From positions 866,984-903,334 of the forward strand of contig NZ_LWDV01000009.1 of assembly GCF_001693735.1 (NCBI RefSeq): DNA of 36,351 bases, read 5' to 3'. Of this stretch, positions 33,119-36,351 are shown one piece after another. The position numbers and the translations under genes are program-made. The notes under the pieces are model-generated. The model searched no databases and had not been told where the DNA came from. It was given only the letters and a program-made list of their open reading frames with translations. Origin of the DNA: Orenia metallireducens. GTDB taxonomy: Bacteria > Bacillota > Halanaerobiia > Halobacteroidales > Halobacteroidaceae. Positions within the stretch are counted from its first letter, which is position 1, and each line of letters opens with the position of its first letter.

Positions 33119-33179
33119 ACTAATCACCTCTTTAATGAATAGTATGTCATTTCTTACAATATTTTAAAAACTAAAAGCG

Positions 33180-33205
33180 TATACCGCCTAAAGGCGGTGG
33201 TTTTA
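33180..33205 (-). repeat. IS200/IS605-type end hairpin
   Basis: ACCGCC-TAAA-GGCGGT (33183-33198) followed by GGTTTTAGACC is the kind of subterminal hairpin that TnpA recognises. It lies 62 nt upstream of the tnpA start, marking the left end of the dead IS200 element. Confidence 0.65.
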
Positions 33206-33232
33206 GACCAAGCGCATGGAAAATAAATCTCT

Positions 33233-33298
33233 AAGTCTAACATAAGTCAGCTTTGCTTTCATTTATGCTCATAACTGGGATGTCGCTAAGGTGCTGTT
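33233..33298 (-). repeat. 5' fragment of the group II intron, second copy
   Basis: On the minus strand AACAGCACCTTAGCGACATC followed by CCAG...GAGCATAAATGAAAGCAAAGCTGACTTATG matches the start of the intron at 35182. Homology ends near 33233, where IS200-related sequence begins. It lies 50 nt downstream of the metallopeptidase stop. Confidence 0.7.
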
Positions 33299-33347
33299 CG
33301 TATAATAGAGTACATAACCGTTCAATCTGGGACGAAGTAGCCCTTCT

Positions 33348-34229
33348 CTATTCTCTTACCAATAATTTATAAATCCCATTCAATAATTCTTGAGATATTT
33401 TACTTGTATCTCCAGTAACAACTTGAGTAAATGAATTTGCAATTATTTCTTCTGGATGTTCCAAATATTTCATTTCATTTGCTACAGGATTTTTTAACCT
33501 ATTAATATCTTGTCTACTAATTAATTTGGACTCTTTTAAAACTTTATAATAACTATCATCTTCTTCTAAAATTAACATTTTAGTTGTAATACTTTTTAGA
33601 ATATCTTGGGTTGAATCTATATTTTTCCTATCCGCTTTTATAAGTATTATCGGAACAACAGGAACTAAATCTTTTTTTAAATATACCCATGTACAATAAT
33701 TTATAGTTGGGGCATCTGGATTAGTTAATTTAATTGACTTTAATTTATCTGATAGTATAATATTATTAATTTTCTTATATCCTAAAATTGCATATAATTT
33801 CTCTCTTAACGATGGAAAGTTTTTAGAAATAACATGAAATAATTCATGAATTATTAATTTTTTCAGCTTAACTTTATCATCACTATTAATTCGTTTTGAT
33901 GGTAAAATAATAGCATTTTCTCTAGTATAAGCAGAATTCCATTCCTCTAAACCATTAGTTTTAACAATATATATTGGTTTTGAAATATTGATATGTAAAT
34001 TTAGTTCTTTTTTTAATTCAGATAAAATATCCTTTAATTTTAAAATTTCTCCTTCTTCCCATTCTAAAACACATGATTGCAAGAACTCAATAAATTCTTT
34101 CTCCTTTATAGATTCATTTTTCTTCATCTTTAAAGCATATTCATGTGGTGATAATTCTTTTAAATATTGGTCTCGTTTAGCAATTATTTTTTTACTTTTT
34201 TGTATATTAGCAAATTCAAATAATATCAT
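33348..34229 (-). CDS. Orphan HExxH zinc metallopeptidase-like protein
   Basis: The 293-aa protein is soluble, with no signal peptide or membrane segment. His128-Glu129-x-x-His132 in LIIHELFHVISKNF is a zinc-binding HExxH helix. A second acidic motif, HPEEIIANSF (about 258-267), fits the E-x-x-x-N glutamate ligand of gluzincin-like or ImmA-type peptidases. Residues 1-80 are charged and helical. Between the motifs lies NPDAPTINYCTWVYL. I do not know the exact family. ATG follows GGGAGGTTTATAA. Its ribosome site lies about 10 nt from the 3' end of the intron, so the intron may supply its transcript start. A regulatory protease or toxin-like peptidase is possible; no partner gene is adjacent. 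Confidence 0.65.
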   Translation of the reverse strand: MILFEFANIQKSKKIIAKRDQYLKELSPHEYALKMKKNESIKEKEFIEFLQSCVLEWEEGEILKLKDILSELKKELNLHINISKPIYIVKTNGLEEWNSAYTRENAIILPSKRINSDDKVKLKKLIIHELFHVISKNFPSLREKLYAILGYKKINNIILSDKLKSIKLTNPDAPTINYCTWVYLKKDLVPVVPIILIKADRKNIDSTQDILKSITTKMLILEEDDSYYKVLKESKLISRQDINRLKNPVANEMKYLEHPEEIIANSFTQVVTGDTSKISQELLNGIYKLLVRE

Positions 34230-34251: not shown

Positions 34252-35182
34252 GTCGGGTAAGTTAGGAGCTTTACAGCTCCCTTCTCCCCTAAGAACCGTA
34301 CTTGATAATTTCACGTCATACGGCTCAAGCAGTTATCAACCAATCTTCGGATTGGCAGTAACAAACTTTAATCTGTTACTTGACCTTTCAGAATATGAGT
34401 CCGTTAACTTTACTAGTCTGCGGTCACCCACTCATACGAGTTATTTGGCTTGCCACATTCACAAAGTTCTTATTCCTTCCAGCCTCAAACCACTTATAGA
34501 AAGTCAGCCTCCTTTCAGAATAGGGCAAATTTTGAACCACTATCCATCTCATTACAAGATGACATTCACTTCTTTCAATCTCTTCTACCCACTGAGTATT
34601 GTATTAACATTACTGTTAACCTACCTGATATTTCAGGAACCCATTGGGCTTACCCAGTTCTATACCTTAGCCAATTCATACTGTCTTAGGTTCTACCTTT
34701 ACTCCGAAGATATTAGTCTATTTGTCAAGCAATACGAAAAGTTACTTGACCCCATCTCTCACCTTTTGGTCATAGTGTCTCAGCCTTATTTCACTATTTA
34801 CGTTTGACGAAACTTGCAGTAGTTCAACTCATTTAACCATAACAGTATATTTATCCTAGCAATTCACCTGCTTTAGGCTAGCAGGGTATTTCACATTGTC
34901 TCTATCGCTTAGCACCCAGTCGTTACCAATCACACACCGATAGATAGAATTACCTCAAATAGAATAGGTAGTCCAAAGGTCTACTTTACAGTAGACTTAG
35001 ACAACCTAAGATATAGCTTACCCCCTGTTATTTCAAGGGCTGGTCGTACTGACGTATAACGTCCCGCAGCTTCGCCACGTCCCCTCCAACGCTCTCAATC
35101 TTTAATCAAAACTAACATCCTGACATAAGCCAGCCCCACTTTCTATTTATCCTCTCAGCTGGGATGTCGCTAAGGTGCTGTT
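34252..35182 (-). mobile_element. ORF-less group II intron
   Basis: About 931 nt on the minus strand. Domain V is 34293-34326, exactly the canonical 34 nt: GAGCCGTAT at its 5' side (AGC triad), a GAAA loop, and GTACGGTTC at its 3' side. Domain VI (34252-34290) is a GGGAGCT-GTAA-AGCTCC hairpin followed by TAACTTACCCGAC, with a candidate branch A. The 5' portion carries the GCGACATCCC block shared with two fragments elsewhere in the window. Nothing resembling a reverse transcriptase is encoded. It must therefore depend on a protein from elsewhere, or be immobile. The 5' end is unsure: I do not see a GUGYG start. Confidence 0.75.
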
Positions 35183-35252
35183 ATAAAGACATTTTGCGTT
35201 CTCCAAACCTTATAATCTCCCTACCAATCTTCAATTTCCATTTAAATTTCTA

Positions 35253-35300: not shown

Positions 35301-35525
35301 ATGCAAACTATAAAAATTCGTAAAGTTGGAAATAGTTATGGATTTACTATTCCTAAAGAAGTCATGGAAAAATATCATTTGAAAGAAGGAGAAGAACTCC
35401 ATCTTATTGAAGAAAATGATGGTTTTACATTAACTCCTTACGACCCTGAATTTGAAGAATGGACTAAATCTTTTGAAAAAACAAATCAAAAATTCAAAAA
35501 CGCATTAAAGGAACTATCTAAATGA
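35301..35525 (+). CDS. AbrB/MazE-type antitoxin (SpoVT-AbrB fold)
   Basis: The 74-aa protein starts MQTIKIRKVGNSYGFTIPKE, a swapped-hairpin AbrB DNA-binding domain, followed by EGEELHLIEENDGFTLTP and a charged tail (residues about 50-74) that should wrap around the toxin. The start is ATG 35301 with AGGTGAT just upstream; a GTG at 35292 would sit inside that ribosome site. Its stop overlaps the toxin start by 4 nt, so the two are coupled. Doc is usually paired with Phd; an AbrB-type antitoxin is an alternative pairing. Confidence 0.85.
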   Translation: MQTIKIRKVGNSYGFTIPKEVMEKYHLKEGEELHLIEENDGFTLTPYDPEFEEWTKSFEKTNQKFKNALKELSK

Positions 35526-35914
35526 AAAATGTAAATTTTATTCCTAAAAAGATCATACTATATTTCCATGAACAACTCATCCAAATTTATGGTGGTAGCA
35601 CTGGAATAAGAGATGAAAAACTTCTTTATTCTGCTATCGAGCAGCCTAAAAGCACTTTTGAAGGCAAGTATTTGCATAACAATATATTCAAGATGGCATC
35701 AGCTTATGGGTTTCACTTATGCAAAAATCATCCATTCGTAGATGGCAATAAACGAATTGCTCTTGTTGCTATGGATACATTCCTTCAAAATAATGGTTAT
35801 GAAATAACTGCTTCTGAAAAAGAAACCTATAAAATAATGATAAAACTATCATCTGAAAATCTTTCAAAAGATGAATTAACAAAATGGTTAAAAGAAAATA
35901 CCACTTCTATCTAG
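35522..35914 (+). CDS. doc: Doc-family toxin (Fic fold)
   Basis: The 130-aa protein resembles Doc, which phosphorylates elongation factor Tu and stops translation. The signature HPFVDGNKRIAL (about residues 80-91) contains the Fic motif HPFxDGNKR with its catalytic His. The N-terminal IQIYGGSTGIRDEKLLYSAI and the middle EGKYLHNNIFKMASAYGFHL are typical Doc blocks. Length is normal. No premature stop is present, so it looks functional. ATG overlaps the antitoxin stop. It is followed by a terminator. Confidence 0.92.
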   Translation: MKNVNFIPKKIILYFHEQLIQIYGGSTGIRDEKLLYSAIEQPKSTFEGKYLHNNIFKMASAYGFHLCKNHPFVDGNKRIALVAMDTFLQNNGYEITASEKETYKIMIKLSSENLSKDELTKWLKENTTSI

Positions 35915-36228: not shown

Positions 36229-36351
36229 TATAACGTCCCGCAGCTTCGCGACGTCCCCATAAACGCTCCAACTTCTAATCAAAGCTACCATCCTCACATA
36301 AGTCAGCCTTGCTTTCATTTATCCTTTCTAGTTGGGATGTCGCTAATCTGC
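36229..36351 (-). repeat. 5' fragment of the group II intron, third copy
   Basis: On the minus strand from the window edge it reads TTAGCGACATCCCAACTAG, then AAAGGATAAATGAAAGCAAG, GCTGACTTATGTGAGGATGG, and GGGACGTCGCGAAGCTGCGG ending GACGTTATA. This follows the intron at 35182 for about 120 nt and then diverges. It may continue beyond the window. Confidence 0.7.

Follow-up and report, generated by a model that had tools for sequence, protein, structure and literature searches.

A probable non-autonomous member of a group IIB-type intron family at integron attC sites in Orenia metallireducens

The window, a 36,351-nt stretch of the Orenia metallireducens genome, contains a 798-nt group II intron without an open reading frame (ORF), located on the minus strand at positions 35049–34252, directly after an integron attC site. 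We propose, with a probability of roughly 0.78, that it is a non-autonomous derivative of a IIB-type intron with integron cassette junctions (attC) as homing sites, and that it is served in trans by a maturase. The sequence itself provides the ribozyme anatomy, the place 6 nt after the attC site, the relatives bearing a reverse transcriptase (RT)/maturase, the spread of copies and the empty sites. An earlier note, made from the window alone, had called the feature an ORF-less group II intron; the integron attC setting was missed there.

Extent and fold of the intron

Two Rfam models match the minus strand. RF02012 (D1D4-7) matches the domain I segment at 34860–34971 with 60.6 bits (E = 3e-10, above threshold), and RF00029 (domains V–VI) matches 34252–34328 with 57.2 bits (E = 7.5e-9; threshold 40 bits). 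The group II intron match is therefore far beyond chance. No RT ORF was found within the intron, in which the longest stop-to-stop sense frame has 59 codons. The feature is thus a real ORF-less group II intron, and the covariance-model search that the earlier note had proposed bears it out.

The boundaries were set by alignment to ORF-bearing relatives, together with an empty-site comparison for one of them. The 5′ end is GUACGACCAGCC and the 3′ end is CCCGAC; position 34252 is about 8–10 nt upstream of the GGGAGG of the next gene, in agreement with the distance of about 10 nt given earlier to the ribosome site of a metallopeptidase gene. The first five bases, GUACG at 35049, differ by one change from the GUGYG consensus. 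They align with the GUGCG found in nearly all relatives (GUGUG in the others), which have G instead of A at intron position 3 (G3A). The earlier note was right that a canonical GUGYG is absent and wrong that no 5′ end is visible, and its suggestion of an unusual 5′ site stays plausible. It also drew the element out to 35182; the intron stops at 35049, and 35056–35184 is the attC site.

The full intron folds with a z-score of −3.3, better than 20 shuffles. In an alignment of nine introns, 172 of the 179 consensus pairs of domains I–III form in the window intron, and two-sided compensatory changes occur at 48 of the 179. Therefore, these domains do not fail to fold, which the earlier note had named as the outcome that would speak against an intron. 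Among the pair states private to the window copy, 10 are kept and 3 are broken.

Domain V has the predicted length of 34 nt (34326–34293) with the AGC triad at 34325–34323. Its distal helix (GACGU/UUAUC) contains C.A and U.U mismatches and is fully paired in all eight other introns compared. Because of these two mismatches, the description of this domain as intact was too strong, and they argue against current activity. Domain VI (34252–34291) has the expected candidate branch point, a bulged A at 34258, 7–8 nt from the 3′ end, and the intron ends in AY. The domain IVa segment (34430–34462) comprises the former ORF start, where AUG is now GUG, and an ACUC-GUAU-GAGU hairpin, and it is conserved in ORF-less relatives. 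In Ll.LtrB-type introns, the corresponding region is the main site of maturase binding; this hairpin is likely to be the maturase-binding site here.

The attC site and its integron

The sequence upstream of the intron recurs about 20 times in the same genome, as found by the first DNA search. Eighteen copies give the consensus TAAC-AGCANNTTAGCGACATCC...GGACGTCGCGAANNTGC-GGGAC-GTTA, an imperfect palindrome. Its arms are paired in 91% of the cells of this alignment, a value that drops to 23–55% upon register shifts, and the covariation score of the arms was attained by only one of 500 shuffles. The imperfect palindrome with conserved AAC/GTT and a covarying stem therefore represents the architecture of an integron attC site. 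A fold derived by RNAalifold from the attC alignment alone was different and weak, and it was replaced by this direct test of arm pairing. The site beside the intron (35056–35184, minus strand) was left out of the training of the model (R2), which was built from other attC copies, and it scored 127.6 bits (E = 8e-31); its R′ arm stops 6 nt short of the intron.

In this genome, the attC model found 32 sites. The 14 Halanaerobiia genomes searched all have one or more, with up to 77 in one of them (G003). attC arrays are widespread among Halanaerobiia. The G003 genome gave no match to the window intron at the thresholds used. Over seven genomes, an attC site ends exactly 6 nt upstream at 11 of 16 intron 5′ ends, including all the ORF-bearing ones. 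No recognisable intact attC adjoins several of the ORF-less relatives (G002:436k, G008:C8 and G004:612k).

Within the window, the next attC site lies at 36230–36351 (minus strand, 115.3 bits), cut by the contig end, and a degenerate site at 33174–33300 (minus strand, 33.4 bits, E = 2e-6) closes the intron-bearing cassette. Within the 3′ half of the degenerate site, AAACCACCGCCTTTAGGCGGT is reminiscent of the terminal hairpin of an IS200/IS605-type element, and a 46-nt match recurs at C9:832005. The cassette gene 3′ of the intron (33348–34229, minus strand) encodes 293 aa with a weak M1-peptidase-like match (PF01433, E = 5.5e-4, below the cut-off). Another cassette carries an AbrB-type antitoxin (TIGR02609) and Doc/Fic toxin (TIGR01550) pair at 35301–35914 on the plus strand, opposite to the array direction. 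Toxin-antitoxin cassettes in integrons are commonly transcribed in this way.

A tyrosine recombinase gene is adjacent to the array (L032:7346-8512, which is C9:757345-758511 of this genome, minus strand). Its product matches IntI4 (2a3v), scoring 226.8 bits with TIGR02249 (below the cut-off of 265) and 231.8 bits with NF040815 (above the cut-off of 220). The IntI-specific insert was not seen in it, about 40 residues being missing around the insert, and about 115 additional residues are present at the N-terminus. Five other genomes (G003, G004, G007, G008 and G009) have homologues close to attC sites. The protein is possibly an integron integrase of unusual build.

Relatives, maturase and target recognition

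A DNA search of the same genome revealed two full introns of about 86% identity to the window copy (C9:736544-738714 and C10:73369-75539) and, at C10:70368, a 5′ intron piece cut off by an assembly gap. The C9 and C10 introns sit directly after attC sites and are identical across 2171 nt, and the piece is identical across its 472 nt. The flanks of the C9 and C10 copies differ on the 3′ side and share 84% identity on the 5′ side. Identical introns behind 5′ exons that are only 84% alike indicate recent copying to separate attC sites. At C9:369752 (L034:2753), a one-base N gap directly after an attC site is followed by the intron 3′ end GTAAAGCTCCTGACTTACCCGAC and TTC; a further intron copy was probably lost there in assembly. 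The gaps at C10:66714-70364 and at the contig end probably conceal additional copies.

The C9 and C10 introns each encode a 488-aa RT/maturase (TIGR04416, 360 bits; RVT_1, RVT_N and GIIM, PF08388), in which a domain profile search found no endonuclease domain. The intact protein is the one that the earlier note had suggested looking for in the genome, and its idea that a protein acting in trans may serve the intron holds up as a working proposal. The closest solved protein is the group IIB maturase of Thermosynechococcus elongatus TeI4h (6me0, 494 bits), compared with 144 bits for LtrA and 99 bits for a IIC RT. Judged by its nearest solved protein, the family appears to be of group IIB type, possibly CL1.

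Full-length ORF-less introns were found in three other genomes, G002 (436487-437279, 797 nt), G008 (C8, 768 nt) and G030 (872 nt), and deleted ORF-less copies in G001 and G004. By matching loci, G008 is probably Candidatus Frackibacter sp. WG13 and G004 is probably Halonatronum saccharophilum. Related introns lacking the ORF are thus present in other Halanaerobiales. The plasmid and phage collections yielded mostly a domain V–VI piece and no full relative. Among the ORF-less introns, domain IV shows homology between genera (77–87% in four introns) and retains the hairpin at the former ORF start; the start codon is altered in three, and one has a UUCG loop. A single common ORF loss would fit this homology, but it is doubtful as a full account: domains I–III cluster partly by genus and not by ORF status. 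Some of the history is therefore likely to involve recombination with local copies that carry the ORF, or repeated loss. The G030:1642k copy keeps extra ORF remnants and looks like a separate ORF loss. Apart from this family, an attC-like end is followed by GGACATATCCAA[CT]GGGTG[CA]AAGTCCC[GA]TCAAGG both at L075:2054-2177 (G005) and in the 3′ flank of the G004:446k intron. This sequence resembles the beginning of another intron-like element at attC, unlike the one described here.

Empty sites define the insertion point. When the exons of the C9 intron are joined, they align over 135 nt with a paralogous cassette lacking an intron at C9:750.7k (83% identity), with one late gap and none at the junction, and a second intron-free paralogue at C9:752k also aligns. 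These alignments place the insertion of the C9 intron at GACA^T. The introns have the same orientation as the cassettes, and the first base of the 3′ exon is T at nearly all sites. The intron segment AACGU (candidate EBS2, 34800–34804) is conserved and is complementary to ACGTT at positions −13 to −9 of the 5′ exon (IBS2, 35062–35058), inside the R′ arm of attC. All five pairs form in 10 of the 14 copies tested, and the remaining four are copies without a recognisable intact attC. The candidate EBS1, UUUCGU (34734–34739), is in the loop of a 9-bp hairpin and forms four of six pairs with the IBS1 of the window copy, ACGTCA (35055–35050). Five relatives form all six pairs, and two relatives have cognate changes (GGGCAU with IBS1 AUGUCC; UGUCGU with IBS1 ACGACA); after these were noticed, an early guess for EBS1, UGUUGC, was discarded. 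Permutation of EBS1 among copies gave p = 0.055, which is only suggestive, as a single EBS1 is shared by eight of the ten copies.

Based on these features, we infer the following pathway. The maturase of C9/C10-type introns would bind the retained domain IVa hairpin of the ORF-less RNA, aid its splicing in trans and carry it into the DNA beside attC by reverse splicing. The target would be chosen by pairing of EBS2 with ACGTT of the R′ arm and of EBS1 with the last six exon bases, leading to insertion at GACA^T. Priming of the second strand may depend on replication, because the family protein has no endonuclease domain. The window copy probably arrived by such trans mobilisation and later lost some fitness, as G3A, the domain V mismatches and the weak EBS1 pairing would indicate.

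These three changes are each mild, and jointly they suggest a copy past its prime, whose present activity is doubtful. The odds are about even that the window copy is now an inert fossil that has stopped splicing and moving and is tolerated in the untranslated stretch between the attC site and the next ribosome site. The two domain V mismatches unique to this copy, the lost start codon and the visibly deleted state of other ORF-less copies in relatives point this way; however, nearly all domain I–III pairs form, and the private pair states are mostly kept. Since the fossil reading concerns the present state, it is compatible with the proposed origin by trans mobilisation.

The origin itself could be explained differently if the intron had been moved within a cassette by the integron recombinase instead of retrohoming at this attC. 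With its insertion point on the 3′ side of the G^TT crossover, an inserted intron is carried along with the downstream cassette. However, different introns have unrelated 3′ exons, identical introns stand beside attC flanks of 84% identity, and empty paralogous cassettes are known for the C9 copy; we consider cassette movement unlikely. Self-splicing without any intron protein, as described for C. tetani C.te.I1 (PMC4424553), would suit an intron lacking an ORF, but it is quite improbable given that close relatives in this genome encode an intact maturase and that domain IVa is retained. Membership in the IIC-attC class, classically linked to integrons, is suggested by the attC location and the endonuclease-less protein and is refuted by the AGC instead of CGC triad, the cassette orientation, the presence of EBS2, the target GACA^T instead of TTGT/T, and a protein far nearer to TeI4h than to a IIC RT.

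Known introns and significance

The trans-served IIB-type intron proposed here combines features of known systems. UHB.I2, from the Tanatar-5 soda lake, is one complete IIB1/CL1 intron just after an attC in cassette orientation; poor exon conservation was noted for it, and a role of the hairpin was speculated (Sonbol & Siam 2021, PMC7923331). It shares with the Orenia-type family the IIB type, the lack of an endonuclease domain, the position, the orientation and a hypersaline source. However, it has its own ORF and is a single copy on one contig with no reported 5′ exon conservation (PMC7923331), whereas the Orenia-type family is multi-copy and multi-genus, with ORF-less members and R′-arm pairing. 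The Halorhodospira halochloris elements H.ha.F1/F2 are also IIB-type introns within an attC array, but they belong to bacterial class E and are 5′-truncated fragments (PMC7923331). The IIC-attC introns (S.ma.I2 and kin) likewise insert at integron attC sites and lack an endonuclease; they differ in having a IIC ribozyme with a CGC triad, the opposite orientation, the TTGT/T target and no EBS2.

ORF-less bacterial group II introns are considered rare and are usually accompanied by a related protein (PMC4424553). The T. elongatus TeI4/TeI3 introns, which include the nearest solved maturase, are the closest parallel: ORF-less IIB derivatives next to ORF-bearing ones are mobilised by the protein of a relative (Mohr et al. 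2010, PMC2882425). TeI4h also works with a non-G first base, a known departure from the GUGYG consensus (PMC2882425). In contrast, these introns lie away from attC sites, and the TeI4h protein has an endonuclease domain (PMC2882425). A IIB intron after attC (PMC7923331) and trans-mobilised ORF-less IIB introns (PMC2882425) are therefore already published; the combination of both, the R′-arm pairing and the spread across genera appear to be new. The open-licence literature joining integrons with Halanaerobiales or Orenia contained nothing on such introns.

To our knowledge, introns linked to integrons were for a long time considered to belong to class IIC alone, whose members recognise the attC hairpin. 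If the IIB family reads the R′ arm of attC through base pairing, as it appears to, introns would have solved this target a second time, independently. We give an even chance to the broader proposal that the family uses the R′ arm as a homing site via ordinary EBS2 pairing, that every cassette junction of a host is a potential target, and that an ORF-less lineage persists in several genera on a borrowed local maturase. The family adds a bacterial case beyond T. elongatus in which ORF-less introns are apparently sustained by the protein of a relative, here in several genera, and it offers a natural system in which to ask whether there is any need for the attC hairpin.
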